Source of the DNA: an uncultured Bacteroidota bacterium
Lineage (GTDB): Bacteria; Bacteroidota; Bacteroidia; Bacteroidales; GWA2-32-17
DNA: 48,067 nucleotides
Assembly: GCA_903837285.1 (NCBI GenBank)
Contig: CAILUD010000213.1
Location: forward strand, 1 to 48,067
Direction of reading: 5' to 3'
In this document: positions 6,243-48,067 of the stretch, piece after piece
How positions within the stretch are numbered: the first letter of the stretch is position 1
How the letters are laid out: each line of letters begins with the position of its first letter
The notes under the pieces: model-generated
What the model saw: only the letters and a program-made list of their open reading frames with translations
Databases searched by the model: none
What the model was told of the DNA's origin: nothing
Translations under genes and position numbers: made by a program

Positions 6243-6306
6243 GTCATTCTGAGTGTAACGAAGAATCTAAATTCGAAAGTAGATTCTTCACTACGTTAAG
6301 AATGAC
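6243..6306. repeat. Dispersed palindromic repeat (GTCATTC/GAATGAC family)
   Basis: An imperfect inverted repeat: the left arm GTCATTCTGAGTGTAACGAA continues with GAATCTA, and the right arm TAGATTCTTCACTACGTTAAG ends in AATGAC. Arms of about 27 bp are separated by about 10 bp. This is the clearest intergenic copy of the family that recurs in this window. Confidence 0.85.
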
Positions 6307-7305: not shown

Positions 7306-7395
7306 GTCATTCCGAACAAAGTGAGGCACTTTTCTCACCGAAGGTAATCTAGTAACAAATATCTCCACTAGATCCTTCGCTACGCTCTGGATGAC
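7306..7395. repeat. Dispersed palindromic repeat between the two TM1266-family genes
   Basis: Left boundary GTCATTCCGAACAAAGTGAG, right boundary TCCTTCGCTACGCTCTGGATGAC, with a TCTAGT/ACTAGA inner pair. It belongs to the same family as 6243-6306 and sits inside an apparent operon between two paralogous genes. Confidence 0.8.
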
Positions 7396-10069: not shown

Positions 10070-12193
10070 CTATTTTGAAGTTTGATAATTTTTAATTTTC
10101 TCAATTTCAGCTTTAAGAGTTTCAAAATTAGATTTAAGTTGAATGTTTTGTGATTCAAGGTTATTTATCGATGCTTTAAGATCAGTTATTTCCTTATGCT
10201 GTTTTTGAAGTTCTTTTAAAAGTAAAACAGAAAGCATTGGATATTTAACTGCATCAGGAATAAGTTTTTCTGAATTACTTCCTTTTATTACATCTTTTTC
10301 TACTGCATATTCTGCAAGCTCAGGAATTACAGATGCAACTTCCTCTGCAATTAATCCAAAATATGGTTTATCATCAGTTATTGAGATATATGATACTGGT
10401 CTAAGTTTGTAAATATTCTCGGTATTAATTGTTAAATCAGTAATTTCTTTTTTATATCTTTTTGAGGAAGTACTTCTTAAAATCTGGCCTGTACTTAAAA
10501 CAACCATATTTGCAGCATTTGCTGTTGTAGCAGCATAAGCACCATGACAAAACATTGTAGTAATTGCTGAACTACCAAGTATTACTCTGTTAGATATTGC
10601 TCCAATTAAATACCCTGCAGTATTTCCAATAAAAACATTATTATCGCCTGTAACACCCTTACCAGCAGATTGCCCAATACAAGTATTTCTTGAACCAACA
10701 ACTGTTGATCCAGCATCTCCTCCTACTGCAACATTAAAGTCACCACTACCATATTGACCAGCTACATTGCCAATAAAAACATTTGAAAATCCATCATCAG
10801 TTTTGTACTTTGCAGCGGTATTTCCAATTATAACACAAGACAAATTATTGATAGAAGATCCACCAGCATCATTACCAATAACAATATTTGATAAACCTGT
10901 TTTATTTGAATAGCCTGCCTTAAAGCCTAAAAATATATTATAATTACCTATACTATCGTTATAACCACTACTGTTACCTATAAAAATATTCGAACTATTT
11001 TTAACATGTTTATACCCTGACTGAAAACCAATAAATGTATTGTTTGTACCAATGGTATTGCTTTTACCACTTTCATAACCCATAAAAATATTATGATCAG
11101 AGGTATTATTATAACCAGCTTGAAAACCCATAAAAAGATTATAATTTCCGATTGTATTAATAAAACCGCTTTTGTTTCCGATAAAAATATTGTGTAATCC
11201 ACTTGAATTATTAAAACCTGTACTATCTCCTATAAAAATATTACTTGCCCCTCCTAAGTTGCCATACCCAGATCGATATCCAATAAAATAATTTTTATTT
11301 CCTACTGTGTTACTATAACCACTTTGATATCCTATAAAAGAATTATACTTACCAATTGTTATAGAATTACCAGCAAGATGACCAATTAAATAATTATCTG
11401 GAGTCATTTTCATATAACTTGTTTTATTCACTCCATTAATATTTTCAACACCAAAACCTTTTAATGTATCTTTTGTCCATATTTTTGAATTATCAGGAGT
11501 AACGTGCAAATATTTATTTGTAAATGCTTTTGTATTATTTCTGCCACTTACTGCAAAACCACCTCTGTTTGATTGAATAGCTTCATCGTTTACAAACACA
11601 TTAACGCTATCTTGATAAACGACAAAAACAGTCTGGCCTATAGAATTCTTTACTTCAAATAATGGGTCTGTAGGCAAAGCAGTAGAACTTCCCTGTACAA
11701 CCATTCTTCCAGATGGGTTATTTAAACCTACACCAACATTGCCAGGATTTGCATTATAAATATTGTTACCAACTTTATTCCATAATGTATCAACATTACC
11801 TGCAGTTTGTGAATACATAGCATAAGGAACAGAAAGAAGCTGTGTAGTACCCATATTAATATATCCGCTACCTAAATCAGCCTCAACTTTTATAAAATGC
11901 GATGTTGCACCCCAGTTAATTAATAAAAAATCTCCCGTAACAACGTTACCAGTTCCTACAGACAAAGAAACTATTCCAAATGCATTAGTTAATATTGTAT
12001 GAGTCTCTACATATTCTGCAGCACCCACAGCTGAAATTGGAATAATACTCAATCTTAAATTTACTGATTGAGATTGTAATACATTGCCGGAAACATCACG
12101 AATTACTGCCTGATATTGAAATGACTGAGGAGATTGAGCAACAGCGAAAAAGCTGATAACTGCAGCGAAAATTAACAATATAATTTGCTTCAT
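10070..12193 (-). CDS. Fibre-like exported protein with S74/endosialidase-chaperone C-terminus
   Basis: A 707-residue protein. Signal peptide 1-19 (ends FFAVAQ). Residues about 20-135 are an N-terminal module shared with the next two genes (SPQSFQYQAVIRD..., NWGATSHFIKVEADLG, GTTQLLSVPYAMYS). The middle (about 255-530) has many 11-12-residue repeats of the form N.FIG..SGY.N..G, predicted to build a beta-roll. The C-terminus (about 585-700) resembles the intramolecular chaperone (Peptidase_S74) domain of phage tail spikes: SSKRYKKEITDL, RPVSYISI, YFGLIAEEV, then a coiled coil. In S74 proteins this domain trimerises the fibre and may cleave itself at the Ser. No T9SS domain is present. Role inferred as a trimeric surface fibre or adhesin. 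Confidence 0.8.
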   Translation of the reverse strand: MKQIILLIFAAVISFFAVAQSPQSFQYQAVIRDVSGNVLQSQSVNLRLSIIPISAVGAAEYVETHTILTNAFGIVSLSVGTGNVVTGDFLLINWGATSHFIKVEADLGSGYINMGTTQLLSVPYAMYSQTAGNVDTLWNKVGNNIYNANPGNVGVGLNNPSGRMVVQGSSTALPTDPLFEVKNSIGQTVFVVYQDSVNVFVNDEAIQSNRGGFAVSGRNNTKAFTNKYLHVTPDNSKIWTKDTLKGFGVENINGVNKTSYMKMTPDNYLIGHLAGNSITIGKYNSFIGYQSGYSNTVGNKNYFIGYRSGYGNLGGASNIFIGDSTGFNNSSGLHNIFIGNKSGFINTIGNYNLFMGFQAGYNNTSDHNIFMGYESGKSNTIGTNNTFIGFQSGYKHVKNSSNIFIGNSSGYNDSIGNYNIFLGFKAGYSNKTGLSNIVIGNDAGGSSINNLSCVIIGNTAAKYKTDDGFSNVFIGNVAGQYGSGDFNVAVGGDAGSTVVGSRNTCIGQSAGKGVTGDNNVFIGNTAGYLIGAISNRVILGSSAITTMFCHGAYAATTANAANMVVLSTGQILRSTSSKRYKKEITDLTINTENIYKLRPVSYISITDDKPYFGLIAEEVASVIPELAEYAVEKDVIKGSNSEKLIPDAVKYPMLSVLLLKELQKQHKEITDLKASINNLESQNIQLKSNFETLKAEIEKIKNYQTSK

Positions 12194-12263
12194 AATCTTA
12201 CTGGTTTATTTTAAAATAAAAAAAGTTAATTTAAATAGTGATTATTCAAAACAATACAAATAA

Positions 12264-12271
12264 CAAAGTTA
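12264..12271 (-). promoter_or_regulatory. -7 promoter element for the 707-residue fibre gene
   Basis: TAACTTTG on the minus strand matches TAnnTTTG, about 70 bp upstream of the ATG at 12193. The nearest TTG lies about 27 bp upstream, which is longer than usual. Confidence 0.35.
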
Positions 12272-12287
12272 ATTATAATGAATATAC

Positions 12288-14369
12288 TTACTCCCATGCA
12301 ATCCAATCAATTTCTAGATTTTGACTCCAAGAACCTCCAGCATTATCAACTCTGAATACATTGACTTGAAATCCAACTCCATTTACATTTCTTGTAGTAA
12401 CAACATACACATCATTATAATTTCCACCTTTAGCTGTTACTGTTACCTTTGGTATTCCAATAAAAGGTGTTGAAAAAACAACATTTGAAACAAATACACC
12501 ACCTATCAAATTTGAGCCTACAGTTGCAGTACCACCTTGAATTTTATTAAAAGTAGTACCACTATTTACTCTTAAAGATCCATTAATATCGACTTTTGCC
12601 TGAGGATTACTCCAGCCTACACCTAACCTGCCAGTTAAAGGAGACAAAAACAAACTGTTAATCTCTAATAATAACGGATCGGAATAAAAAACATAACCAC
12701 CTGCAGCTCTTACCATAAATTGATTTGGATTAGTAGAATTAGTAGTAACTAATGTTGAAGCATCACCAATAATTATAGAACCATTATTATTGTTAGTTGA
12801 AATAAATCTACCTAAAGCCATTGAATTATCGCCAGATGCAATTGTGTTAAATCCAATAGAAGCAGACATAATACCACTTGCTTTCGAGTTATTACCAATT
12901 GCCATGGAACTTTGACCAGATGCTTTTGATAATACTCCCATTGAAAAAGAATTATTACCAGATGATGTATCGCTAATGCCTATTGCCAATGAAAAATCAC
13001 CAGTTGATACAGAATTATAACCAATAGCTGATGAAAGCCTTCCACTTGCCTTAGTTAAAACTCCAAAAGATGCTGCACCATAATTATCAGATAAACTACC
13101 AATTCCCATTGAAATTGATGCAAATCCTAAAGTAGTTGTTCTTGCTCCTAATCCTATTGCAAAAGAATATGCACCTTCAGATTTTGTAAGATTACCTGTC
13201 TGAACTCCAAATTCATCTACTTGAACAGATCCAAAAGCTAAAGAACCTTCACCAATAGCCTGACTTTTATAACCTAAAGAAAAACTACCAGAATTAAAAG
13301 CAATTACAGAATCACCAATCGCATAAGAATTAAGTCCATTAGCAATTGCATTTTTTCCTATTGCTGTAGAATAATCACCTCTTGCAATAGGCTTATATCC
13401 TAGCGCTTGCGACCAATCGCCTTTTGCTTTTGAAATAAATCCTGAAGCAAAAGAATTAACACCAACGCTATCTCTATCTTCAATTAATACTCTGCCAGTT
13501 AATAATGCTTCTTTTGTTGGATACCATAATACTCTTGCCTGGCTTGGATTTATAATTTCTGTAGTATCAACACTTACATTTAAAAAATCTTTATTACCAC
13601 CAGAATTAATTCCCATTACTGCAAAACCATCACTTGCAATATCTTCATTTAAAAAAATTCTAGTTTTATCAGGTGTTACTTTTAGATAATTATGAGTTAA
13701 TGCTTTTGTATTATTTCTGCCACTTACTGCAAAACCACCTCTGTTACTCTGAATAGCATCATCATTTACAAACACATTTACACTGTCCTGATAAACAACA
13801 AACACAGTCTGACCAATCGAATTTTTTACTTCAAATAATGGATCAGTTGGCAAAGCTGTTGAACTACCCTGAACTACCATTCTACCAATCGGATTATTTA
13901 AGCCAACTCCAACATTTCCAGGATTACTGCTATAAATATTATTTCCACTCTTATTCCATAAAGTATCAACATTACCTGCAGTTTGTGAATACATAGCATA
14001 AGGAACAGAAAGAAGCTGTGTGGTACCCATATCAATATATCCGCTTCCAAGGTCAGCCTCTACTTTTATAAAATGCGATGTTGCACCCCAGTTGATTAAC
14101 GAAAAATCTCCCGTAACAACGTTACCAGTTCCTACAGACAAAGAAACTATTCCAAATGCGTTTGTTGATATTGTATGAGTCTCTACATATTCTGCAGCAC
14201 CCAAAGCTGAAATTGGAATAATACTCAATTTTAAACTTACTGATTGTGATTGCAAGGCATTTCCTAAAGCATCACGAATCACTGCTTGATATTGAAAAGA
14301 CTGAGGTGATTGCGAAAAAACATACACATTAAGTGACGTCAAAACTAATGTTAAAATTAAATTTTTCAT
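12288..14369 (-). CDS. Fibre-like exported protein with YadA-head repeats and H-type-lectin-like C-terminus
   Basis: A 693-residue protein. Signal peptide 1-19 (ends VYVFSQ), then the shared N-terminal module and a second block (about 145-260; DPLFEVKNSIGQTVFVVY, SNRGGFAVSGRNNTKAL) almost identical to its neighbours. About 300-540 is a long run of roughly 14-residue repeats of the form S.AIG..S.ASG, the pattern of YadA/Hia head repeats that form a trimeric left-handed beta-roll. Instead of an S74 domain the C-terminus (about 628-692) reads VVFSTPFIGIPKVTVTAK ... GFQVNVFRVD ... EIDWIAWE, closely resembling the H-type lectin domain. A glycan-binding tip is therefore inferred. The gene starts 2 bp after the preceding fibre gene. 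Confidence 0.78.
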   Translation of the reverse strand: MKNLILTLVLTSLNVYVFSQSPQSFQYQAVIRDALGNALQSQSVSLKLSIIPISALGAAEYVETHTISTNAFGIVSLSVGTGNVVTGDFSLINWGATSHFIKVEADLGSGYIDMGTTQLLSVPYAMYSQTAGNVDTLWNKSGNNIYSSNPGNVGVGLNNPIGRMVVQGSSTALPTDPLFEVKNSIGQTVFVVYQDSVNVFVNDDAIQSNRGGFAVSGRNNTKALTHNYLKVTPDKTRIFLNEDIASDGFAVMGINSGGNKDFLNVSVDTTEIINPSQARVLWYPTKEALLTGRVLIEDRDSVGVNSFASGFISKAKGDWSQALGYKPIARGDYSTAIGKNAIANGLNSYAIGDSVIAFNSGSFSLGYKSQAIGEGSLAFGSVQVDEFGVQTGNLTKSEGAYSFAIGLGARTTTLGFASISMGIGSLSDNYGAASFGVLTKASGRLSSAIGYNSVSTGDFSLAIGISDTSSGNNSFSMGVLSKASGQSSMAIGNNSKASGIMSASIGFNTIASGDNSMALGRFISTNNNNGSIIIGDASTLVTTNSTNPNQFMVRAAGGYVFYSDPLLLEINSLFLSPLTGRLGVGWSNPQAKVDINGSLRVNSGTTFNKIQGGTATVGSNLIGGVFVSNVVFSTPFIGIPKVTVTAKGGNYNDVYVVTTRNVNGVGFQVNVFRVDNAGGSWSQNLEIDWIAWE

Positions 14370-14371
14370 AG

Positions 14372-17300
14372 CTATTTTATCTTGGATTCTAATTTCTCAA
14401 TTCTTTCAATCAAGTTGTTTATTAATATCTTCTGCTCGGTATTTTCTTTAACAAGGATTTCATTTTTTTCAACCTGCATATCATTTAACTTTTTCAATTC
14501 TTTAATTGCATTAATTGTAACAAAAGTTAAAGCATGTGAATTAAAACTTAAATACTCTGTTTCATTTTTCGCTCCGTTTCGATCACCTGAATTACCCACA
14601 CTATATTTAAATACTCCAACAGTATAAGGAGCAATTTTTTGAATTTCCTGAGCTAAAATTCCAATGTTTTCACCATCTGTAGGCATACCTGCTAAACCAT
14701 TATATTTATATTTTACCGGATTAATTTTAAGTAAAACATCTAATCCATCATTGAATGTAGTAATATCCTTTTTAAGTCTTTCGTCAGATGCAATAGTCCA
14801 TGTATTAGTTGATGGTTTTGCTGCATTATCTGTTGATAATTGTAATTGATATACTGGTGTAGTTGTTCCAATTCCAACATTTCCTCCTGATGGTTGAAGA
14901 GATAAAGGATCTGCAATAATACCTGCGAGTCCTGACTGTAACCATGCTGCAAAGCTACCACTTGCCATTTTTCCAATATCTAAACCCTCTGAAGATGATA
15001 TGCCAATTCTTAATATCCCTGTTGAAGTAGTATTTGGTATAGATGGATTAGATCCAACAGAAACAACAGATAATCTTGCAGGTGGCGCAATGGTTCCAAT
15101 TCCTACAAATCCATTCTTCAGTACTGTCAAAGCATTACTTCTAGATAAATTACCGGAACCATTTCCTATAACAAATAAAGGATCAGTTCCAATCCATGAA
15201 GAAGCCGAACTGCTTGTCGTATCATTATACCTTCCTGCAACAAAAGAGTTATAAGAATTTGCATAAGTACTTTGTCCCATTGCAATTGATGAAACTCCGC
15301 GAGAATGAGTACTAGAGCCTAAAGCAGTAGAAAACATTCCATTTGCAATAGTATTAACACCCATTGCAGTTGACCATATGCCATTTGCTATAGACCCATC
15401 ACCAAATGCTGTTGAAGACTGGGCATTTGCTTTTGTTCTAAATCCCATTGCAACTGAATAGCTTCCATTTGCTTCCGTTTGATATCCTGTTGAAAGACCA
15501 CATTCCCCGCTTGCTACCGACTGCCATCCCATTGCAGTAGTGAAAAATCCGTTAGACATTGTCTCGTACCCCATAGCAAATGAATTCTGACCGCTTGCTA
15601 TTGAACCAAACCCTAATGCTGTAGAAAAATATCCTGATGCAATAGTTCTGTAACCCATTGATGTAGCAACAAATCCGGTAGATCGCGTATAAGCACCCAT
15701 AGAAGTGGAATACCAATCGGTTGATTTGTTTTTATATCCCATAGATAAAGAATAAAGACCTGTAGCAGAATCGCCCGCACCAAAAGCAATAGCTCCTTCT
15801 GCAGAAGCTTGTGATCCTAAACCAAATGCAAACGAATAATTACCGGAAGCTCTTGTTACAACACCTGTAGGACCTAGTGAGTCTCTTCCAACATATCCAA
15901 AAGCAAAACTTCCAATACCTGTTGCTTCTGCATAGGCTCCAAAAGAATATGCATCTTGATTAGCTGCAATAGAATGATCACCAAAAGCAAAAGAATTAAT
16001 CGATTTTGCAACTGCATTTTTACCTATTGCTGTTGAATAATTTCCTCTGGAAATTGCTTTATAACCCAATGCCTGAGACTGTCTACCTATAGCTTTTGAC
16101 TCAAAACCAGAAGCAAATGAGTTTATTCCAACACTATCCCTATTTTCAATAAATACCCTTCCTGTTAAAAATGCCTCTTTAGTTGGATACCATAATATCC
16201 TTGGCTGGCTGGGATTAATTACCTCCATAGTATCAACACTTACATTTAAATAATCTTTATTTCCTCCTGAGTTTATTCCAATTACTGCAAAACCATCACT
16301 GGCAACATCTTCATTTAAGAATATCCTTGTTTTGTCTGGTGTTACTTTAAGATAATTATGAGTTAAAGCTTTTGTATTATTTCTTCCACTAACTGCAAAG
16401 CCTCCTCTGTTAGATTGAATAGCATCATCATTTACAAAAACATTAACACTATCTTCGTAAACAACAAAAACAGTCTGACCTGCTTTGTTCTTTACTTCAA
16501 AAAGAGGTTCAGTAGCTAAGGCTGTTGCACTTCCCTGTACTACCACCCTACCTAAAGGACTTGCTGTTCCAATACCCAATCTTTCATTTGAATTATCCCA
16601 AATAAAATTTGCATTTCCTCCAAAAACACCTGAATTATTATATTGAATAGTTTTATTTAGTCCACCTGGTGTTCCCGAATTTAAATCTGTACTAGAAATT
16701 GTAAAATTTGGATAAGTACCACTTATTGTTGTTGCTCCTCCCTGAGTTAATGTTACAGCCTGATCAGGTGCTGTATTTTCAAATGTTGTACCTGATAAAC
16801 TCAAACCTGAACCTGCAGAGTAAGTTGTATTGTTATCTACACTTGAAATTGTAAAATTCGGATAAGTACCACTTATAGTTGTTGCTCCTCCCTGAGTTAA
16901 TGTTACGGTCTGGTCTGGCGCTGTATTATCAAAGGTTGTACCTGATAAACTCAAACCTGAACCTGCAGAGTAAGTTGTATTGTTATCAGCACTTGAAATT
17001 GTGAAATTAGGATAATTTCCTGTTACAGTTGTTGAACCACCCTGATTTAATATTAAAGTCTGATCAGGGGCTGTATTTACAACTGTTGAGCCAGTAATAT
17101 CAATTCCTGTTCCACCAACATAATTTGCTGTTCCGGCTACTGTAGCATAGTTTGCATTTGTAGCATTATCAGCCTGAGTAGCTGATAAAGAATTGATAGC
17201 GTATGGAACAGACAATAATTGTGTTGTACCCATATCCAAATAACTTGTACCACCAGTAGGGTCAGCTTCTACCTTAATATAGTGAGAGGAAGCTCCCCAG

Positions 17301-17578
17301 TTTATTGTAGAAAAATTTCCTGTAACAACAGTACCATTTCCAACAGATAAAGATACTATTCCAAATGTATTTGTTGTTGATAAATGTGTCTCTACATATT
17401 CTGCAACACCTACTGCTGATATAGGAATAATACTCAATCTTAAATTTACTGATTGAGATTGCAATACATTGCCGGTAGCATCACGAATTACTGCCTGATA
17501 TTGAAAAGACTGAGGTGCCTGAGCAAATACTTTAATAATTAGTATTAAGCCAATTAAAGTCCATAATATTTTTTTCAT
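14372..17578 (-). CDS. Large fibre-like exported protein with YadA-head repeats and S74 C-terminus
   Basis: A 1068-residue protein, first of the three fibre genes. Signal peptide 1-19 (ends IKVFAQ), then the shared N-terminal module. Residues about 170-295 hold three copies of a roughly 40-residue unit (TTYSAGSGLSLSGTTF ... GGATTISGTYPNFTISS), as in phage-tail or collagen-like stalks. A block shared with the 693-residue protein follows, then about 480-780 with many S.AMG..T.ASG head repeats. The end (about 950-1066) has the S74/endosialidase-chaperone features SDERLKKDITTF, NPVKYKYNG and NIGILAQEIQKI, followed by a coiled coil. The -7 element lies about 25 bp upstream. No phage genes surround it, so this is a cellular fibre rather than a tail spike. 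Confidence 0.8.
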   Translation of the reverse strand: MKKILWTLIGLILIIKVFAQAPQSFQYQAVIRDATGNVLQSQSVNLRLSIIPISAVGVAEYVETHLSTTNTFGIVSLSVGNGTVVTGNFSTINWGASSHYIKVEADPTGGTSYLDMGTTQLLSVPYAINSLSATQADNATNANYATVAGTANYVGGTGIDITGSTVVNTAPDQTLILNQGGSTTVTGNYPNFTISSADNNTTYSAGSGLSLSGTTFDNTAPDQTVTLTQGGATTISGTYPNFTISSVDNNTTYSAGSGLSLSGTTFENTAPDQAVTLTQGGATTISGTYPNFTISSTDLNSGTPGGLNKTIQYNNSGVFGGNANFIWDNSNERLGIGTASPLGRVVVQGSATALATEPLFEVKNKAGQTVFVVYEDSVNVFVNDDAIQSNRGGFAVSGRNNTKALTHNYLKVTPDKTRIFLNEDVASDGFAVIGINSGGNKDYLNVSVDTMEVINPSQPRILWYPTKEAFLTGRVFIENRDSVGINSFASGFESKAIGRQSQALGYKAISRGNYSTAIGKNAVAKSINSFAFGDHSIAANQDAYSFGAYAEATGIGSFAFGYVGRDSLGPTGVVTRASGNYSFAFGLGSQASAEGAIAFGAGDSATGLYSLSMGYKNKSTDWYSTSMGAYTRSTGFVATSMGYRTIASGYFSTALGFGSIASGQNSFAMGYETMSNGFFTTAMGWQSVASGECGLSTGYQTEANGSYSVAMGFRTKANAQSSTAFGDGSIANGIWSTAMGVNTIANGMFSTALGSSTHSRGVSSIAMGQSTYANSYNSFVAGRYNDTTSSSASSWIGTDPLFVIGNGSGNLSRSNALTVLKNGFVGIGTIAPPARLSVVSVGSNPSIPNTTSTGILRIGISSSEGLDIGKMASGSFAAWLQSGLAGIIADPLSLQPSGGNVGIGTTTPVYQLQLSTDNAAKPSTNTWTIASDERLKKDITTFNDGLDVLLKINPVKYKYNGLAGMPTDGENIGILAQEIQKIAPYTVGVFKYSVGNSGDRNGAKNETEYLSFNSHALTFVTINAIKELKKLNDMQVEKNEILVKENTEQKILINNLIERIEKLESKIK

Positions 17579-24845: not shown

Positions 24846-24883
24846 TGTCATTCTGAGCATAGCGAATAATCTAGTAAGAATAA
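24846..24883. repeat. Half copy of the GTCATTC dispersed repeat
   Basis: GTCATTCTGAGCATAGCGAA continues into TAATCTAGTAAGAATAAC. It matches the left arm of the family and a shortened right end, upstream of the aspartate kinase gene. Confidence 0.65.
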
Positions 24884-24902: not shown

Positions 24903-26177
24903 ATGAAAGTTTTTAAATTCGGAGGAGCATCAGTTAAAGATGCAAGTGGAGTTAAAAATATTGCCAAAATACTTTTAAATAATTCCGATTCCAAAATTGT
25001 AGTTGTTATTTCTGCCATGGGCAAAACAACTAATGCTCTTGAAAAAGTATTAAACGAATATTTTAATAAAAACAAAAACATTCTTGATTCAATAAATTCA
25101 ATTAAAAATTATCATTTAGAAATTATAAATAATTTATTTGAAACTAATATTAAAGAAACTATCACAAAAGAAACAGAAGATATTTTCAATAAAATCACTA
25201 ATTACATAAGAGCTAACTTTTCACCAAAAAACTATGATTACGAATACGATAAACTAATTTCATGGGGTGAAGTTATTTCAACAAAAATTATTCATTACTA
25301 TTTACTAGAACAAAAAATCAATAGCAAATGGATAGATGCAAGAGAATTAATTAAAACCAATAGTAACTATAGAAATGCAGCTATAAACTGGGAAACAACA
25401 TGCACTAATTGCACAACACAAATTGTAAATTCATTTAATAATTTTGACATAATTGTAACTCAGGGATTTATTGGTTCTGATAATCAGAATAACACTACTA
25501 CCCTTGGCAGAGAAGGCTCAGATTTTACAGCCGGAATTATTGCTCATGCAATAGAAGCGAGTGATGTTACAATATGGAAAGATGTTCCCGGACTTCTTAA
25601 TGCTGACCCAAAATGGTTTGACGATACTGTTAAACTTAACAATATTTCCTATCACGAAGCAATTGAACTTGCTTATTATGGTGCAACTGTAATTCACCCT
25701 AAAACAATTCAGCCAATAAAAAATAAAAATATTCCTCTTTATGTAAAGTCATTCTTAAATCCTGAAGAAAACGGCTCAGTTATTAATAATAACAGCTCTC
25801 ATGATTCAAAAATTCCATCTTTTATTTTCCGTGTAAATCAAATTTTGCTTTCTATTTCTTCAAAGGATTATACTTTTATTGTTGAAGAAAATTTAAGTGC
25901 AATATTCGGACTATTTGCTTCTCATAAAGTAAGTATCAACTTAATGGAAAATTCTTCAATTAGTTTTTCTGTAGTTGTAGATTATGATGAAAGAAAAATT
26001 AAACCTTTAATAAAAGAGCTTCAAAAAGAATATAAAGTTTTATATAATACTGGAGTTGAACTTGCTACAATACGCAATTACGATCAAAAAACTATTGAAA
26101 GAGTAACATTAAATAAAAAGATTTTTATTTCTCAGCAAAGTAGAAAAACTGTAAGATTTGTTATGAAAGATAAATAA
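24903..26177 (+). CDS. lysC: Monofunctional aspartate kinase
   Basis: A 424-residue aspartokinase catalysing ATP-dependent phosphorylation of L-aspartate, the first step to lysine, threonine and methionine. The N-terminal KFGGASVKD motif and the LGREGSDFTAG block are the family's active-site signatures, with SWGEVISTK for aspartate binding and WKDVPGLLNADPK nearby. The C-terminal about 130 residues form tandem ACT-like domains for allosteric control. No homoserine dehydrogenase domain is fused. It is a single gene after the efflux operon and is convergent with nadD; an AT-only inverted repeat (26170-26205) lies at the two 3' ends. Confidence 0.93.
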   Translation: MKVFKFGGASVKDASGVKNIAKILLNNSDSKIVVVISAMGKTTNALEKVLNEYFNKNKNILDSINSIKNYHLEIINNLFETNIKETITKETEDIFNKITNYIRANFSPKNYDYEYDKLISWGEVISTKIIHYYLLEQKINSKWIDARELIKTNSNYRNAAINWETTCTNCTTQIVNSFNNFDIIVTQGFIGSDNQNNTTTLGREGSDFTAGIIAHAIEASDVTIWKDVPGLLNADPKWFDDTVKLNNISYHEAIELAYYGATVIHPKTIQPIKNKNIPLYVKSFLNPEENGSVINNNSSHDSKIPSFIFRVNQILLSISSKDYTFIVEENLSAIFGLFASHKVSINLMENSSISFSVVVDYDERKIKPLIKELQKEYKVLYNTGVELATIRNYDQKTIERVTLNKKIFISQQSRKTVRFVMKDK

Positions 26178-26802: not shown

Positions 26803-26875
26803 GTCATGCTGTCCGCCGCGGCGGAAAAGTGAAGCATCTATATTCAAAATAGATTCTTCGTAAACTCAGAATGAC
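26803..26875. repeat. Dispersed palindromic repeat in the nadD leader
   Basis: Boundaries GTCATGCTG and CTCAGAATGAC belong to the common family. Nested next to the left boundary is a perfect 14-bp palindrome TCCGCCGCGGCGGA (26812-26825), as if a second module had inserted into the first. Confidence 0.8.
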
Positions 26876-39627: not shown

Positions 39628-40311
39628 ATGCGTTTCGATATAATTACTGTTTTACCAGAACTTCTTGAAAGTCCTTTTAACCACTCTATTGTTAAACGAG
39701 CAAAAGATAAAGGCCTTGTTGAGATAGAAATTCATAATCTTAGAAACTTTGCTAAAAACAAGCAACGCCAGGTTGACGATTACCCTTTTGGTGGAAAAGC
39801 AGGAATGGTATTAATGATAGAACCAATTAATGATGCTATTAATCATTTAAAAAATCTACACGAATACGACGAAATTATTTACACTTCTCCTGATGGCGAA
39901 ATATTTGATCAAAAAATGGCCAATACTCTCTCACTTAAAAAAAATATTTTAATTCTTTGCGGACATTACAAAGGAATAGATCATAGAATTAGAGAAAATT
40001 TAATTACCCGCGAAGTAAGTATTGGGAACTATGTTATGACAGGTGGTGAAATGGCAGCAGCAGTTATGGTAGATAGTATAGTCAGGCTTATTCCAGGAGC
40101 AATTGGTGACGAATCATCTGCCCTCTCTGACTCATTTCAGGACGATTTGCTTGCACCACCAGTATACACACGCCCTGCCGAATTTAATGGGTGGAAAGTT
40201 CCTGATATATTGTTATCTGGAAATGAAGCTGAAATCGATAAATGGAAGCACGAACAGTCAATTTTAAGAACTAAAGAATTAAGACCTGATTTATTAAAGG
40301 ATGAAGATTAA
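39628..40311 (+). CDS. trmD: tRNA (guanine-37-N1)-methyltransferase
   Basis: A 227-residue SPOUT methyltransferase that makes m1G37 in tRNAs to prevent frameshifting. The trefoil-knot SAM site is visible as [23 protein letters not shown] and [14 protein letters not shown]; the [13 protein letters not shown] block is typical. Here trmD stands alone, away from the usual rpsP-rimM-rplS neighbours. The stop codon shares TTAA with the stop of the convergent phosphatase gene, a 4-bp overlap. Confidence 0.96.
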
Positions 40312-42611
40312 ATTCTTATCCCAACAACTGTTACATCATCAATTTGTTCGTTTTCTCCCTTCCAATTAATAAATGCTTCATCAATTGCAATTCCTTGCTC
40401 ATGCATCGACTTATGGCTATTTCTAACCAATAGTTCTTTAAATTGTTTATACAAGAATTTTTTTCCCTTAGGGCCACCAAATTGATCGGGTAAACCATCA
40501 GTAAAAACATAAATCAAATCATTTTTAAGTAAAGTAAATTCATTCTGAGTAAATGGTATTTGATCTTTTTCATGTTTTCCTACGGGCATTTTATCTGGTT
40601 TTAATTCTATCAATTCATTATTGCGAATTACCCAAATTGGATTATTTGCAGCAGAATAAATAAATTTCTTGTTAGCAAAATCAAAACAAATTAAACTTGC
40701 ATCCATACCATCTTTACCTCCCTCAACACTTCCATCTTTTTTTAATCTCTCAATAATTGAATTTCGGGTATGATTTAAAATTTCTGAAGAATTACAAAAG
40801 CCTAACTCAACTGCTTTTTCTAAAGATGAAATATTTAAAATACTCATAATTGCACCCGGAACACCATGCCCAGTACTATCGGCTATTGAAATAGCAAATT
40901 TTCCGTCTTTTAAAATACTTGCCCAATAAAAATCTCCACTTACAACATCTTTGGGGTGAAAAATGACAAAATGCTCACTTAAATTTTCTTCTAATAATTT
41001 TTTATTTGCCAAAAAACTTCTTTGAATACGCTCAGCATAATTAATACTATCTGTAACATCTTTATGAATTTCTTCAATATGTTCCTTTTGAATTGTAACC
41101 AAATCACGTTGAGCCTCAATCTCATCACGCTGAGCTTCTATTTCATCTCTTTGTGTTGAAATTTCTTCTTTTTGTTGAGTAATTTCAATATTCTTTTGTT
41201 CCAGAATTTTATTATCTCTTCTTTTAATTTTATAACTTCTAAAAATAACAAATGCCAAAATTATCATAAGTAAAAAACCAATAATAAATGTATTTCGAAT
41301 AAACCTTTGTCTTGTTATTTCTGCTTTATGCTGAATATCAATTTGTAACTTTTTAAATTCTTCTTCTTTCTGTATTTTATCAAAATCATATTGCATTCCA
41401 AGCTGAGTTATTTTCTTTATGTTATCTTCATTAATTAAACTATCTGTCATTTGCTGATATATTAATTGAAATTCATAAGCTTTTTGAAATTGGTTTTGCT
41501 TTGCATATAATACACTTAAAGTTTTAGCACTATACTGAATAGGTTCCTTAGAATTATCAGCTAATGCCATTTCATAAGATTTTATATGGTATTTAATCGC
41601 TAACGGAATATTACCCATTGCATCATATAAACTTCCCATATTAGAATATCCATTACAAACTCCCTCAATATCACCAATTTTTGTTTTTATTTCTAAACAT
41701 TTTTTTAAATATTCTATAGATTTATTCAAATCCCCTTTATTATAAAATACACCAGCTATACTATTATATGCATTGGCAATTCCATTTTGATCACCTATTT
41801 CAGTAGAAAGAGTTAAATATTGGTCATAAAAAATTAAAGCAGAATCAGGATCATCTGTTGCTTCGTATATAATTCCAATATTTTGAAGTACACTACAAAT
41901 GCCATTCTTGTTATTTATTTCCTTTTGAATTGCTAACACTTTTTTATCATATTCCAATGCTTTTTTATAATCAAAAATTGAATAATAAAGACTACCTATA
42001 CTAAGAAGTGTAGCTGCAATTTCAGATTTATCACCAATTTCCTCTCTTATCTTGAGACTTTTAAATAAATAATCGAGTGCTTTTGGATAATCACCTTTTT
42101 GATTATATATATTTCCAATGCCTAAATACTCATACGCAATTCCTTCTTTGTTTTTTAGAGTTAATTCAATATTTAAACTTTTAACATAATACTCAAGTGC
42201 TTTATCAAATAACCCAATATTTTCATATGCATAACCAAGATTGTTTAGTGTTAGCGAAATTTTTGATTTAATGTTTAAGCTATCAGCAATTTTATACGCT
42301 ATAAGATAACTTTCTAATGAATTCTGATATAAACCAAGATACGAATATGAACTACCTAATGTATTCTGAGCATCAATCAAAAAGTCGAAATTTTTGATTT
42401 TATTTGAAAGATTTACTGCTAATTTTGAGTAAAATACGGCCGAATCTGGCTTTACATATTCATATGAATATGCAATCCTTATTAAAGTTGCAATTTTTAT
42501 TGTATCGTGTTTGGTTTTATTTAAGTCTTTTAATAACGAATCACGATTATTATCAGAAATACCATATATGTTAATAAACAATATACAGCATATTGTTAAA
42601 ATTTGCTTCAT
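40308..42611 (-). CDS. TPR-transmembrane-coiled-coil-SpoIIE phosphatase, paralog A (no repeat insert)
   Basis: A 767-residue membrane signalling protein. Signal peptide 1-18; about eight TPR units at 80-400 (for example [21 protein letters not shown]); TM at 440-458; a charged coiled coil 465-530 with two copies of the heptad QRDEIEA; and a PP2C/SpoIIE domain at 545-767. Metal-ligand Asp residues are in SGDFYW (D560), [10 protein letters not shown] (D578), [11 protein letters not shown] (D705) and DDVTVVG (D758/D759). A periplasmic TPR sensor is thus coupled to a cytoplasmic Ser/Thr phosphatase. Unlike its neighbours it lacks the repeat-derived insert between NNPIWVI and [10 protein letters not shown]. 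It begins one base after paralog B. Confidence 0.92.
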
Positions 42612-42612
42612 G

Positions 42613-44970
42613 TTATATTCTTATTCCTAAAACTGTTACATCATCTATTTGCGAATATTGCCCTTTCCATTCTTTAAAAATAACATCAAGAATTTCCAGT
42701 TGCTCATTCATAGGTTTCTGACTATTGTTAATTAATATTTCTTTAAATTTTTTGTACATGAATTTTCTTCCTTTTAAACCACCAAACTGATCGGCATAAC
42801 CATCAGTAAAAAGATAAACACTATCTCCCTTTTGTAAAGAGAATACATGATTAGTAAATTCTTTCATTATTGGATAAATAGCAATTGGCATTTTGTCTCC
42901 CTTAAGTTCAAACAAATCTCTATTGTCATTCTGAGGCATAGCCGAAGAACTATTTTCTTGCGCAGCAAAATCTGAATGACTAGAATTAGATTTTGCTTCG
43001 CAAGAAAGCTGTTCTTCACGTTCGTTCAGAATGACAGAAGGAATGATGTATAGAGGATTATTCGCCCCAGCCCATTGGCATTCATTTGTATCAGTATTAA
43101 CAACAAGTAAAGAAATATCCATCCCATCTTTTTGTTCGCCATGCACACCTTTTTGCTGAAGTGCACTAATTATTTCGATTCTTAAATGATTTAAGACATG
43201 ACTTGCATTATGAATTTCTTGCTTTAAAACTATTTCATTTAAAAAACTAATTCCAAGCATTGACATAAAAGCACCAGGAACTCCATGTCCGGTGCAGTCT
43301 GCAACTGCAACAATTAACAAATTACTTACCTTAGTTGAAAAATAAAAATCACCTGACACAATATCTTTTGGCTTAAAAAGTACGAAATGCTCGCCCAATG
43401 CCAATCTTGCTTGCTCACTAACCGGCAATACAGCTTCTTGTATTCGTTTTGCATAATTTATACTATCTGTAACTTCTTTATGTATTTCTTCAATGTGTTC
43501 CTTTTGAGTTGTTACAAAATCACGCTGAGCTTCTATTTCATCACGTTGAGCTTCTATTTCGTCTCGTTGAGTAATTATTTCTTCATTTTGTTGGTTAAGT
43601 TTAATATTCTTTTCATCCACTAATATTTTTTGATTTTCTATAAAAATTTTCTGCCTTCTAGTAATTCGAAGTGAACGAAAAATAACAAAAGCAATTATTA
43701 ACAACAAAATTAATCCAGTAACAATAAATAAGATTAATATTTTTTGTTTTCTACTTTCTGCTCTTTGTTGACCAATTACAAGATTTTTAATTTCCAGTGC
43801 TTTAGAATGTGAAACGCTATCTGTTGCAGCTTTTTTATTGTATTCATAGACTATTTCTGATTTAAACTGTTCCTTTCTATTATTTTCATTAAAAATTGTA
43901 TCACGGGCAGTAATATACTCAACATAATGAAAATATGCCAATTCAATTTTCTTCATTTTCTCATAAACATTTTTTAACGCTAAGTGAGCTAATTGTTTAT
44001 GAGGGTAACTTTCAATTTCAGTTGCTAGTTCTAAAGATAATTTTGCATACTTTTCTGCTTTATTATATTCTTTAAGATTTAAATACGAATTTGATAAATT
44101 ATTATATAAATCGCTTTGATTGGGCAACATTTGCATTTCCTCAAAAATCTTTAATGCTTTATTAAAATAATCAATAGCAGTTTTATCTTCTTTTATTATT
44201 TGATAATAACTTCCAATATTTAAGTATGCTGTTGCTTCACCAACTACATCATTAATTTGCTTTGAAAAGGCTAAAGACTTTTCAAAATATATTTTTGAAC
44301 TATCATATTTCTCAATACTATAATATACGCTACCAATATTTCCAGTAAGCAAACATTGACCATACAAATGATTTACTTTTCTAACATAAAACAATGCTTT
44401 TTTATAATGAAACATAGCTTTATCGTAATTTGCAATCTGAAAAAAAGTATTCGCAAGATTATTATTTGCCAATGCCATAGTTAAAGTATCACCAGTTTTT
44501 TCAATTTCATGCAATGATTTAAAACCATATTCAATTCCAACAGTATAATTACCTTGTTCTGTATAAGCCAAATTAAACGACGAATAAATACGTTGAAAAT
44601 ATTCACTATTTAATTTGTTTTTTTTTGCAATAATTAAAGCGCTTTTAAGATACTCTAATGCTTTATCGTACTGGCCACGTTCACGATAAATAACACTTAA
44701 AGTAATTAAAGCATTAATTTGAAATTCAAGTTTATTAGATTTCTTTGCAAGACTATATGATTTGTTAGCATAGTTTAATGCCGAATCAGGATTAATTTCT
44801 GAGTAGGCACTAGCTAATGCATCTACCCAATAAGGTAATAAAGAATCATTTTTATAAGCTTTAACTTGTTTCTTTAATGAATCTATAATATGAATTTCTT
44901 TAGCAATTAAACTAAAGCTATTGCAAGAAAGAAAAAACAATAAAATAATGTATAAAGCTATTTGTTTCAT
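42613..44970 (-). CDS. TPR-transmembrane-coiled-coil-SpoIIE phosphatase, paralog B (with in-frame repeat)
   Basis: A 785-residue paralog. N-terminal signal or anchor 1-24, TPR region about 40-355, TM 410-432, coiled coil 440-512 with two QRDEIEA heptads, SpoIIE phosphatase about 525-785. Active-site Asp are in SGDFYFS (D541), ADCTGHGVPG (D558) and the C-terminal FTDGYADQFGG and DDVTVLG. Residues 646-682 (between NNPLYIIPS and LFELKGDKMP) are encoded exactly by a palindromic repeat (42925-43035), while paralog A has no such segment. Such proteins usually dephosphorylate anti-sigma-factor antagonists; the partner is not in the window. A TATATTTG -7 element lies 16 nt upstream. Confidence 0.92.
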   Translation of the reverse strand: MKQIALYIILLFFLSCNSFSLIAKEIHIIDSLKKQVKAYKNDSLLPYWVDALASAYSEINPDSALNYANKSYSLAKKSNKLEFQINALITLSVIYRERGQYDKALEYLKSALIIAKKNKLNSEYFQRIYSSFNLAYTEQGNYTVGIEYGFKSLHEIEKTGDTLTMALANNNLANTFFQIANYDKAMFHYKKALFYVRKVNHLYGQCLLTGNIGSVYYSIEKYDSSKIYFEKSLAFSKQINDVVGEATAYLNIGSYYQIIKEDKTAIDYFNKALKIFEEMQMLPNQSDLYNNLSNSYLNLKEYNKAEKYAKLSLELATEIESYPHKQLAHLALKNVYEKMKKIELAYFHYVEYITARDTIFNENNRKEQFKSEIVYEYNKKAATDSVSHSKALEIKNLVIGQQRAESRKQKILILFIVTGLILLLIIAFVIFRSLRITRRQKIFIENQKILVDEKNIKLNQQNEEIITQRDEIEAQRDEIEAQRDFVTTQKEHIEEIHKEVTDSINYAKRIQEAVLPVSEQARLALGEHFVLFKPKDIVSGDFYFSTKVSNLLIVAVADCTGHGVPGAFMSMLGISFLNEIVLKQEIHNASHVLNHLRIEIISALQQKGVHGEQKDGMDISLLVVNTDTNECQWAGANNPLYIIPSVILNEREEQLSCEAKSNSSHSDFAAQENSSSAMPQNDNRDLFELKGDKMPIAIYPIMKEFTNHVFSLQKGDSVYLFTDGYADQFGGLKGRKFMYKKFKEILINNSQKPMNEQLEILDVIFKEWKGQYSQIDDVTVLGIRI
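42925..43035 (-). repeat. Dispersed palindromic repeat inserted in frame in paralog B
   Basis: Boundaries GTCATTCTGAACGAACGTGA (minus strand, coding VILNERE) and CAGAATGAC (coding QND) are the family ends. Length 111 bp, exactly 37 codons, no stop. Confidence 0.85.
43521..43569 (-). repeat. 21-bp tandem repeat coding for coiled-coil heptads
   Basis: Two full copies and part of a third of a 21-bp unit coding QRDEIEA. Paralog A has the same number; the gene at 45065-47335 has one copy fewer, a difference of exactly one heptad. Confidence 0.75.
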
Positions 44971-44986
44971 TCTAATCGGATATCTA

Positions 44987-44994
44987 CAAATATA
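44987..44994 (-). promoter_or_regulatory. -7 promoter element for paralogs B and A
   Basis: TATATTTG on the minus strand, 16 nt upstream of the ATG at 44970; it suggests that B and A form their own transcript. An AT-only hairpin (45037-45059, 10-bp arms) separates them from the upstream paralog, without a clear U-run. Confidence 0.42.
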
Positions 44995-45064
44995 TAAAAG
45001 TCATTGATATTAAAAAAGCACTATTTTACTGAGAGAATAATAAATTTTGAATTTATTATACACA

Positions 45065-47335
45065 TTAAATTCTTATCCCTAAAACTGTAACATCATCAAT
45101 TTGGTCATAAACACCTTTCCAATTTTCAAAAGTCTCATCAAGTATTACTTTTTGCTCAGGCATTGATTTATGCATATTGTTAATTAATATTTCTTTAAAT
45201 TGTTTACACATAAATTTTCGTCCATTATTACCACCAAACTGATCAGCATATCCATCGGTAAAGAGATATACGCTATCGCCTTTGTGTAAAATAAATTCAT
45301 GATTTGTAAAATCATTCATTGTTGGATAAATTGCTATTGGCATTTTGTCGCCCTTCAGTTCAATTAATTCTCTATTATCATTCTGAGCTTGAAAAGAACA
45401 ATTTTCATGCGCAGCTATATTTATATTCAGACTAGATTCCTCACTTTCGTTCGGAATGACAGAAGGAACTATGTAAAGAGGATTATTAGCTCCAGCCCAC
45501 TGGCATTCGTTTGTTTCAGTATTAACAACTAGTAAAGAAATATCCATTCCATCTTTTTGCTCACCTTGTACACCCTTTTGCTGAAGTGCATTAATTATTT
45601 CTTTTCTTAAATTATTTAAAATTTGATTTGCTTTAATAATTTCTTGCTTTTGGGCTATTTCGTTTAAAAAACTTATTCCAAGCATACTCATAAATGCACC
45701 TGGAACGCCATGTCCGGTACAATCAGCAACAGCAACAAATAGCAAATTATTTATTTTAGTTGTCCAGTAAAAATCTCCAGAAACAATATTCTTTGGCTTA
45801 AATAAAATAAAATGTTCTCCTAACACCGACCTTGCAGTTTCACTTACTGGCAACACAGCTTCTTGTATACGTTTTGCGTAATTTATACTATCGGTAACAT
45901 CTTTATGAATTTTCTCAATATGTTCTTTTTGCTCTGTTACTAAATCACGCTGTGCAACAATTTCGTCGCGTTGAGTTAATATTTCTTCTTTTTGTTGACT
46001 AAGTATAACATTAGCCATTTGTTTATTTCTATAATTTCTATAAACAACAATTACAAGTAAACCCATTAGTATAAAACCAAAAATAAAAGCATACTTTATT
46101 ATAATTTGTTGCTTAATTTCTGTATCCTGAAGTTGCCTATCTTTGTTTAATAATTCTATTTCTTTTCGTTTTTTCTCACTTTCATATTTTGCTTCCATGC
46201 CCTTTATCTGCCTACTGCTTTCTATAGAAAACATGCTATCATTTAAAGACTTATACAATTTTTGATACTCATAAGCATTTTTATAATTTCCTAGACTGTC
46301 ATATGTTGCAGACAGAATAGCTACAGCAGAACTTTGCCAAGGAATAACTCCAATTTCTTTTGCAATTAAATTGCTTTTTTTTGCATTATTAATTGCTTCT
46401 TCATATTGTTTTAATTTCAAATTTAAAGCAGCAATATTGCCTAAAACTGATGATTGTCCTTCCTTATCACCAATTTGATATCTTAAATCCAAAGATTTTT
46501 TATAATAATATATACATTTATCATATTCGTCTATTTCAAAATATACATTTCCCAAATTATTATAACAACCCGACATTCTTCTTATATCGTTAATTTTTTC
46601 ATCAATCATTAATGACTTAGATAAATATAATATTGCTTTATCATATTCTTTTTTATATTGATAGGCCAAACCAATGTTATTATAACAAGTCGACATTCTA
46701 CTTTTTTCGCCAAGGTTTTCAACAATTTTTAGCGATTTAAAATAATATTCAAGTGCTTTATCGTCATTACCAAGTTTTCTTTGGATAATACCAATATTTG
46801 TATAGCTAACCGATATCCACAAACTATCGCCTAATATTTCATCTATTTTAAGCGAAAATAAATAGTAATCCAGTGCTTTGTCATATACACCCATCTTGCC
46901 ATAAATAAGTGCTATATTATTATAACATGCAGAAATCTGTTTACTTCTTTTTACAATAGGCAAAGCGATATTTTCTTTATATAATTTTAACGCTTTCTGA
47001 TGAAATTCAATTGCTCTAATTAAATCACTTTTATCTTCATTATAAAATGCATAATTAGTATAAACACCTGCAAGCCATTTTGAATTATCAATATTTTTAC
47101 TTAAATTAAACTGTTGTTCTAAAAATAATTTAGCTTTAATTGTATCAGTAAATTCATATATTGAAAAAAGTTGAGAACATGCATCAATTTTTATTGTATC
47201 AGACTTAACACTTTTAATAACCTTTATTAGACTATCAACTTTATTTTTCTCTTGACAATAATTATTATTACAGCAGAATAGAACTATTATAACAAAGAAC
47301 ATTAATACCCTAATATATATTAACAATTTTTTCAA
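45065..47335 (-). CDS. TPR-transmembrane-coiled-coil-SpoIIE phosphatase, paralog C (with in-frame repeat)
   Basis: A 756-residue paralog. N-terminal hydrophobic segment 8-22 with cysteines at 21-22 (possible lipoprotein or anchor), TPRs about 90-365 (SCYNNIGLAYQYKKEYDKA and similar), TM 412-432, coiled coil 440-492 with one heptad fewer than paralogs A and B, and SpoIIE domain about 505-756 (SGDFYWTT D521, ADCTGHGVPG D538, FTDGYADQFGG, DDVTVLG). Residues 626-653 come from an 84-bp palindromic repeat (45377-45460). It starts 12 bp after paralog D, so the two are likely co-transcribed. Confidence 0.92.
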   Translation of the reverse strand: MKKLLIYIRVLMFFVIIVLFCCNNNYCQEKNKVDSLIKVIKSVKSDTIKIDACSQLFSIYEFTDTIKAKLFLEQQFNLSKNIDNSKWLAGVYTNYAFYNEDKSDLIRAIEFHQKALKLYKENIALPIVKRSKQISACYNNIALIYGKMGVYDKALDYYLFSLKIDEILGDSLWISVSYTNIGIIQRKLGNDDKALEYYFKSLKIVENLGEKSRMSTCYNNIGLAYQYKKEYDKAILYLSKSLMIDEKINDIRRMSGCYNNLGNVYFEIDEYDKCIYYYKKSLDLRYQIGDKEGQSSVLGNIAALNLKLKQYEEAINNAKKSNLIAKEIGVIPWQSSAVAILSATYDSLGNYKNAYEYQKLYKSLNDSMFSIESSRQIKGMEAKYESEKKRKEIELLNKDRQLQDTEIKQQIIIKYAFIFGFILMGLLVIVVYRNYRNKQMANVILSQQKEEILTQRDEIVAQRDLVTEQKEHIEKIHKDVTDSINYAKRIQEAVLPVSETARSVLGEHFILFKPKNIVSGDFYWTTKINNLLFVAVADCTGHGVPGAFMSMLGISFLNEIAQKQEIIKANQILNNLRKEIINALQQKGVQGEQKDGMDISLLVVNTETNECQWAGANNPLYIVPSVIPNESEESSLNINIAAHENCSFQAQNDNRELIELKGDKMPIAIYPTMNDFTNHEFILHKGDSVYLFTDGYADQFGGNNGRKFMCKQFKEILINNMHKSMPEQKVILDETFENWKGVYDQIDDVTVLGIRI
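45377..45460 (-). repeat. Dispersed palindromic repeat inserted in frame in paralog C
   Basis: On the minus strand it opens GTCATTCCGAACGAAAGTGA and closes GCTCAGAATGAT. 84 bp, 28 codons, open in the gene frame. The interior (SSLNINIAAHENCSFQAQND) is nearly the same as in paralog D. Confidence 0.82.
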
Positions 47336-47347
47336 ATAACTTTTTAT

Positions 47348-48067
47348 TTAAAATTTAATTCCAAGAATGGTAACATCATCAATCTGCTCATAATTACCTT
47401 TCCAGTTTTCGAATGCAATTTCAAGAATTTCTCTTTGTACTGTCATAGGTTTATCTACATTTGCAACTAAGATTTCTTTAAACTGTTTATACATAAATTT
47501 CCTTCCTTTAGGTCCACCAAACTGATCGGCATAACCATCTGTAAACAAATAGAAAGAGTCGCCTTTATATAACTTAAATTCATGGTTTGTAAAATCATTC
47601 ATTGTTGGATATATAGCTATAGGCATTTTGTTACCCTTAAGTTCAACTAATTCTTTATTATCATTCTGAGCTTGAAAAGAACAATTTTCATGCGCAGCTA
47701 TATTTATATTCAGACTAGATTCCTCACGTTCGTTCAGAATGACAGAAGGGATGATGTAAAGAGGATTATTAGCACCTGCCCATTGCGCTTCGTTTGTATC
47801 TGTATTAACAACTAGCAAAGAAATATCCATTCCGTCTTTTTGTTCGCCTTGAACACCTTTTTGTTGAAGTGCGTTAATGATTTCTTTTCTTAAAATATTT
47901 AATATTTGATTTGCTTTATTTATTTCCTGCTTTTGTACTATTTCATTTAAAAAACTAATACCAAGCATTGACATAAAAGCTCCGGGAACTCCATGTCCTG
48001 TGCAGTCTGCTACTGCTACAATTAAATAATTATTTATTTTTGTAGTCCAGTAAAAATCTCCACTTAC
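47348..48067 (-). CDS. SpoIIE phosphatase paralog D, 5' part outside window
   Basis: C-terminal 239 residues of a fourth paralog. The frame is open to the window edge: upstream of the internal Met at 47974 it continues VSGDFYWTTKINNY and [12 protein letters not shown], so the internal Met is not the start. FTDGYADQFGG and the C-terminal DDVTILGIKF are present, so the phosphatase half is intact as far as visible. It contains the in-frame palindromic repeat (47660-47743). Very similar to paralog C, which points to recent duplication or conversion of this region. TPR and membrane parts are presumed beyond the edge. Confidence 0.88.
   Translation of the reverse strand, partial: VSGDFYWTTKINNYLIVAVADCTGHGVPGAFMSMLGISFLNEIVQKQEINKANQILNILRKEIINALQQKGVQGEQKDGMDISLLVVNTDTNEAQWAGANNPLYIIPSVILNEREESSLNINIAAHENCSFQAQNDNKELVELKGNKMPIAIYPTMNDFTNHEFKLYKGDSFYLFTDGYADQFGGPKGRKFMYKQFKEILVANVDKPMTVQREILEIAFENWKGNYEQIDDVTILGIKF
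47660..47743 (-). repeat. Dispersed palindromic repeat inserted in frame in paralog D
   Basis: On the minus strand it opens GTCATTCTGAACGAACGTGA, then GGAATCTAGT, and closes GCTCAGAATGAT. 84 bp, 28 codons, open frame. Almost identical to the copy in paralog C. Confidence 0.83.

Follow-up and report, generated by a model that had tools for sequence, protein, structure and literature searches.

The DNA analysed here (the window, 48,067 nucleotides) is contig C213 of the 233-contig, 4.29 Mb genome of an uncultured Bacteroidota bacterium (labelled G000), and its right end encodes four SpoIIE/PP2C phosphatases, named paralogs A to D. As judged from sequence, palindromic repeats are translated in frame at one shared site of these phosphatases, a beta-hairpin turn; most of the repeat families involved are dispersed in the genomes that carry them, the loops are discordant with the gene tree, some are mosaic, and no broken loop was seen. 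We consider it probable that dispersed repeats were captured recurrently and in frame at this one tolerant turn and were then exchanged by gene conversion among the approximately 40 phosphatase paralogs found per genome.

Paralog C matches the Pfam SpoIIE profile PF07228 (9.1e-19), and the PP2C fold has SiaA PP2C (6k4e) as its nearest solved structure (Foldseek, E 1.7e-19); both profile and fold thus identify a SpoIIE/PP2C serine phosphatase. Paralog D is truncated by the window end and its remainder lies on contig C188, the end of which encodes the same 46 residues with which D begins in the window. By this overlap, A to D and four further paralogs on C188, three of the four with inserts, appear to form one tandem array. 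Searching plasmids with the array gave zero matches at the nucleotide level, and at the protein level 25 records, every one below 60% identity. Most named records that encode the closest relatives come from metagenome genomes of Bacteroidetes or Bacteroidales.

The inserts of paralogs B, C and D comprise 37, 28 and 28 codons (111, 84 and 84 nt), are free of stops and lie at one point, flanked by NNPLYI(I/V)PS and xELKG(D/N)KMP, as a preliminary description of this DNA had stated. That description had further equated the insert ends with those of intergenic palindromes at 6243, 7306 and 26803 and had read the segments as in-frame copies of a dispersed palindromic repeat. Both claims hold: the ends match the intergenic copies 6243-6306, 7306-7395 and 26803-26875 and, in addition, a half copy at 24847, and copies from the genome-wide scan match them as well. 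The repeat, T1, is a palindrome with terminal inverted repeats (GTCATTC...GAATGAC), a trait of miniature inverted-repeat transposable elements (MITEs). On both strands of G000 its pattern, GTCATTCYGARY, has 62 matches against 1 for the reversed pattern. Fifty of these 62 places lie outside any open reading frame (ORF) of at least 100 amino acids. The 12 places inside ORFs are divided among six phosphatases of the array, all at the same turn, two other large genes (in L034 and L041), and four (L003, L036, L042 and L041:12557) that we judged to match coding sequence by chance or to lie in a short ORF of doubtful reality. Diverged T1 loops, missed by the exact pattern, are present in three phosphatases outside the array (L054, L057 and, degenerate, L053), bringing the number of G000 phosphatases with T1 at the turn to nine; the three paralogs first reported are correct for B, C and D and too few as a total. 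An Rfam scan of the window gave no match at gathering score, and a known RNA family was rejected; two weak matches (E ~0.9) in 42500-48067 were taken as chance.

The position of the inserts is the 7-residue beta-hairpin turn of the SpoIIE/PP2C domain. An empty turn has about 7 residues (e.g. IRNNELI), and repeat-labelled loops have 15-59. In an AlphaFold2 model of paralog C the insert region is predicted between two strands with a predicted local distance difference test (pLDDT) score of 43-56 (blocks of ten, residues 141-170). The PP2C phosphatases SiaA, SpoIIE and RsbU (6k4e, 3t91, 5ucg) have the same fold and catalytic motifs, but their solved sequences have a short turn in the alignment. 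A first domain search returned 296 hits, of which 116 distinct ones were kept and 152 were skipped, being judged mostly split by long inserts; with two half-domain profiles, used next, the fetched DNA yielded 162 distinct copies of the domain. Paralog A had been proposed as the empty site. It does lack an insert and has the 7-residue turn, but it is a distant paralog and not allelic. Better empty sites are L117, with a 7-residue loop and in the same 16-row clade, and the ortholog pair L168 (empty) and L206 (insert), whose flanks are 87-88% identical. An ordinary conserved protein segment, which homologues sharing the same segment would have indicated, was rejected, since the homologues examined have either the 7-residue turn or a different sequence.

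The earlier scope, T1 in the loops of three phosphatases, was right about the repeat in the loop and too narrow, since the turn is occupied by unrelated repeats in relatives and segments appear to move between paralogs. In relatives (chiefly genomes G001, G002, G004 and G006) these are palindromic repeats of the CAGT-, AAAGT-, CCTAACAGG-, GACAACTTTT- and GCCAATAGC-types. In pattern searches over whole genomes and both strands, matches against reversed controls were for T1 41/0 in G001, 73/2 in G002 and 44/1 in G004; in G002, T5 had 13 places against 0 and T6 8 places against 0. Counts for T4 in G002 (120 against 0), T2 in G001 (15 against 1) and T7 in G006 (51 against 0) include overlapping matches, and the places are therefore fewer. 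Reversed controls are not always neutral, as in G003 the T7 pattern had 0 matches and its reversed control 13. Dispersal in the carrying genome is shown for T1 (G000, G001, G002, G004), T2 (G001 only), T4, T5 and T6 (G002) and T7 (G006). All 8 T6 places in G002 were assigned (4 in phosphatases, 4 outside ORFs, 0 in other genes), and so were all 13 T5 places (2, 11 and 0, respectively). Since the fetched stretches were mostly picked around phosphatases, the coding and intergenic shares of T4, T7, T2 and T3 are not genome-wide; those of T1 and of T5 and T6 in G002 are. Repeat type largely follows the genome: among typed rows T4, T5, T6 and T9 occur only in G002 and T7 only in G006, after the loop of L242, first called T4, had been relabelled native ahead of the tree analyses. 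Beyond this family, a T5-like palindrome occupies the turn in G056 and G062 (2 of 30 loci from an empty-turn query, the query itself being among the 30). Of 20 further stretches, selected for a long match, two of the four from G062 have T5-like loops, two of the eight from G098 have a GCATCGCCCCATGGGGCGATGC-like palindrome and two of the four from G073 have T2-like loops; the three from G042 and the one from G056 had no recognised loop repeat.

Palindromes are concentrated at the turn. In a sample centred on phosphatases, perfect inverted repeats with arms of at least 12 occur at 1.32/kb in the turn (10 cases), compared with 0.42/kb outside ORFs (84), 0.0039/kb in other ORFs (5) and 0.034/kb elsewhere in phosphatase ORFs (11, over half of them in a second hairpin of G002). 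Of the 65 repeat-labelled loops 42 have a hairpin z below -2, a value reached by 3.3% of the 182 neighbouring segments; native long loops, which have no recognised repeat and here include L252 (relabelled T7 for the careful tree described below), fold indistinguishably from their neighbours (p = 0.12). The reading frame is kept throughout. Following 222 first-half domain matches, which were not deduplicated, the second half lies in the same ORF in 216, the locus edge intervenes in 3 and 3 are incomplete, with 0 frame-broken loops among the 222. Complete T1 copies outside phosphatases are both open in the phosphatase frame and a multiple of three in only 1 of 35 cases. The idea that intergenic T6 copies are barred from the turn by an in-frame TAA was rejected; each has a stop in just one of its two orientations.

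Loop type and gene phylogeny agree only in part. The tree set comprised 158 rows (two short and two unplaced rows omitted), and a careful tree, with the loop excluded, was built from 97 rows of G000, G001, G002 and G004 plus L117, leaving aside long branches and some distant groups. Over these 97 rows loop type changes at least 40 times, against a minimum of 50 with shuffled labels (50 draws) and 48 when shuffled within genomes. By our own count, 16 non-overlapping, well-supported groups of the loop-free tree have more than one loop state. Orthologous genes may be empty or carry T1, T2, T4 or T5, as in the group of L225_9869 (T4), L247_3996 (empty), L057 (T1) and L200 (T1), in the groups of L168 (empty) with L206 (T2) and of L231 (T5) with three empty orthologs, and in the mixed group of L179_1732 (T1) with L237 and L199 (T2).

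Conversely, near-identical loops are found in paralogs whose flanks differ by 10-40%. For 15 within-genome loop pairs of equal length and at least 93% identity, positions up to 30 nt from the loop have a pooled identity of 87-91%; farther out it is mostly 63-83% (extreme bins 90% and 53%). Three T6 loops of G002 are identical at 51 of 51 nt between flanks of 61-71% identity, and share junction bases that are absent from four intergenic T6 copies; a fourth loop has a different junction. The loop of L057 is a mosaic: compared with the ortholog L200, its flanks are 85-88% and its loop 73% identical, and compared with L179, a distant paralog in its own genome, the flanks are 60-67% and the loop 87% identical. 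A short tract resembling a paralog and not the ortholog is what gene conversion would leave, and L057 has such a tract. The bases TTCT precede T1 in 6 of 6 array phosphatase copies and at none of 55 places elsewhere, a locus edge having removed one of the 62. Together with the shared loops, this junction is better explained by copying of a once-captured loop than by fresh insertion each time.

We picture the process as follows. Several unrelated families of small, dispersed palindromes would supply repeats that land in a turn tolerant of added residues, and only in-frame, stop-free copies would survive because the phosphatases are kept intact, frame-broken forms presumably being purged. A captured loop would then spread among the paralogs by short-tract, non-reciprocal copying, most likely recombination in the manner of gene conversion, for which the conserved flanking codons NNPLYI and ELKGDKMP would provide the homology, the copied tract being barely longer than the loop. 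Each species would end up with its own set of loops, for which disorder is predicted and which we take to be mostly tolerated rather than useful.

Several observations weigh against capture followed by copying. Some shared loops may be vertically inherited, and the array clade is poorly resolved internally. The repeat types T1-T9 are labels that we assigned, and the whole-genome patterns covered T1-T7, not T8, T9 and three G003 loops. In G004 the T2 pattern is not above control (3 against 2) despite five T2-labelled loops, and T6 is abundant in G006 (25 places), yet 0 loops of G006 were labelled T6. Copies of T3 are mostly confined to phosphatases, which hold 8 of 10 matches with 0-1 mismatch, some being perhaps one gene on two contig ends. 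Nine of the 10 strict inverted repeats in turns come from G002 and one from G000, with none in G001, G004 and G006. Local blastn of loops against a masked sample of 5-18% of each genome gave matches at E < 0.01 for 6/13 loops in G000, 4/13 in G001, 6/22 in G002, 5/13 in G004 and 0/14 in G006, and in G001 control segments also match strongly, which we attribute to unmasked phosphatase pieces. This search being too weak for most loops, whole-genome patterns were used, and dispersal rests mainly on them. Finally, no mobilising enzyme was linked to T1: the seven PF01797 (Y1_Tnp) loci of the genome have no clear T1 flanks, T1 submotifs occurring at 3 of 7 (L077, L078, L083) and only at L077 at both locus ends, weakly, and a clear link to a REP-associated tyrosine transposase (RAYT) as the mobiliser was not seen.

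Selection on the loops is the explanation that competes best, although we think it unlikely. Here each phosphatase would owe a partner or substrate of its own to its variable loop, and capture and copying would supply useful variation. The turn is long and variable also in copies with native long loops, the reading frame is maintained, and about 40 paralogs in a genome might create a real need for pathway insulation. Signs of constraint on the peptide are mixed. In G001 the four T3 loops differ mostly by synonymous changes, a weak sign in favour, but the near-identical loops of C, D and L049 differ almost wholly by amino-acid changes; moreover, copying makes the loops of different paralogs alike, which would not help insulation. 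A somewhat less likely, related proposal is that the turn acts as a natural loop-cassette system, in which repeats would supply loops, conversion would shuffle them across the paralogs, and fast-changing species sets would tune partner choice, then within a large signalling network.

That the hairpin acts as DNA or RNA (in transcription pausing, in mRNA stability or as a nucleoid protein site), its translation being incidental, seems improbable to us. In favour, what was captured is palindromic and in many cases folds strongly; however, the dispersed families examined are palindromic wherever they are located, so that palindromy tells little about selection at the turn, and in 11 of 16 T1 loops, with z above -2, it has decayed although the frame remains intact, an argument against a function for the hairpin as such. 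Very improbable is one ancestral repeat insertion inherited through gene duplication with later drift. The six array paralogs do share the site and the 5' junction of T1, but the same site holds unrelated repeat families, loops are much more alike than their flanks, and ortholog groups on the loop-free tree mix empty turns with different repeats, for which one ancestral insertion was rejected. Equally improbable is an assembly or binning artefact: most genomes used are fragmented and assemblies fail at repeats, but several separate genomes show the same pattern with different repeats, and the inserts lie within intact ORFs with diverged flanks and show none of the frame breaks looked for above.

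Table 1. Phosphatase paralogs, their turn or insert, and T1 copies in the window
Feature	Position	Strand	Description
Intergenic T1 copy	6243..6306	+	Complete palindrome
Intergenic T1 copy	7306..7395	+	Long form, inner hairpin
Half T1 copy	24847..24873	+	Directly upstream of gene at 24903
Intergenic T1 copy	26803..26875	-	One arm holds nested TCCGCCGCGGCGGA palindrome
Paralog A	40308..42611	-	SpoIIE/PP2C phosphatase domain, no insert; distant paralog
Unoccupied site form in paralog A	40608..40628	-	7-residue hairpin turn IRNNELI
Paralog B	42613..44970	-	SpoIIE/PP2C phosphatase, 785 aa
T1 insert in paralog B	42925..43035	-	111 nt / 37 codons, in frame; strong hairpin retained, fold z -7.3 over whole loop
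Paralog C	45065..47335	-	TPR repeats, then SpoIIE/PP2C phosphatase domain, 756 aa
T1-derived insert in paralog C	45377..45460	-	84 nt / 28 codons; palindrome decayed, z -0.8
Paralog D	47348..48067	-	Truncated by window end; rest on contig C188
T1-derived insert in paralog D	47660..47743	-	84 nt / 28 codons; palindrome decayed, z -1.1

Some further observations concern the repeats and the phosphatase domain. A GC-rich TCCGCCGCGGCGGA palindrome lies in or beside many T1 copies of the AT-rich genome G000 (26803-26875 of the window, L007, L009, L018, L023, L035, L040 and L043-L045). T1-like palindromes were seen in G000 in an FAD-linked oxidase (L034, 2594-5650) and, on the opposite strand, in a Fer4_20/Pyr_redox protein (L041, 1241-4534). 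Palindromes nested within loop palindromes include CAAGGGGGCATGCCCCCTTG inside CCTAACAGG repeats and a CTGCCGGCAGG-type palindrome inside T7 (L223, L220, L227 and L231 of G002; L252, L254 and L255 of G006). In G001 the leucyl-tRNA synthetase ORF of L358 (189-2099) has an in-frame T2-like AAAGTTGAAAGT stretch just before the VFTTRPDT motif, which against the solved enzyme amounts to merely a 5-residue extension, an alignment gap. A second hairpin of the phosphatase domain (SGDFYW-ATQ...LLIVAVADCTGHG) carries one or two in-frame AACAAGGGGGCATGCCCCCTTGTT copies, or decayed forms, in 12 paralogs of G002 (loci L214, L215, L216, L217, L219, L220, L224, L228 and L231). This repeat had 16 matches in phosphatase ORFs, in either hairpin, and 0 elsewhere in 366 kb; dispersal is therefore not claimed for it. 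Elsewhere in the window, three adjacent ORFs at 10070-17578 share repeats and are putative adhesin-like surface proteins; the two that were scanned both have a Peptidase_S74 chaperone domain and one has YadA head repeats. At 1682-2476 a 300-nt stretch is repeated at 495 nt spacing with 95% identity within one ORF that has a Por secretion tail.

The turn offers one defined protein position where unrelated repeat DNA repeatedly becomes protein, and relatives show it empty, freshly filled or decayed. A single enzyme family, replicated many times by nature, thus allows a direct test of whether translated selfish repeats are useful or just tolerated. Copying of very short tracts between diverged paralogs is also indicated for Bacteroidota, and loop identity in such families should not be taken as a guide to orthology.

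Gene conversion in multigene families is known to leave near-identical short tracts in diverged paralogs. The phosphatases have such tracts too, but here captured repeat DNA makes up the tract, and recombination appears to take hold at the conserved flanking codons. Rickettsia palindromic elements (RPEs) are dispersed palindromic repeats of about 100-150 bp that lie in frame in functional genes and add peptide segments (PMC10969869, PMC2229807). The preliminary description had drawn this parallel, which stands for how the repeats work and not as family membership. A dispersed palindromic repeat, in-frame stop-free insertion in a conserved gene and relatives with an empty site are found here as well. 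RPEs enter many unrelated genes, whereas here several unrelated repeat families occupy one turn of one gene family, segments appear to move between paralogs, and 6 of the 62 exact T1 places in G000 are phosphatases, with two other convincing genes. Repetitive extragenic palindromic (REP) sequences of the GTAG and CGTC superfamilies also occur inside ORFs, where some encode 20-82 residues, and one section of that study reports different REPs at about the same recB site in two Xanthomonas species (PMC3733652), which would be the closest earlier case of a single shared site. Neither a GTAG nor a CGTC tag is present at the end of T1, which starts with GTCATTC and ends with GAATGAC, and that section describes no paralog family of about 40 members, many repeat families or copying between paralogs. 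A Cardinium MITE is described as inactivating coding genes only uncommonly (PMC9769881). Our literature search found no description of repeat capture and copying at the phosphatase turn. In-frame palindromic repeats are already known from Rickettsia and as intragenic REPs; here they are concentrated at one site, come from many repeat families and appear to be copied among paralogs.

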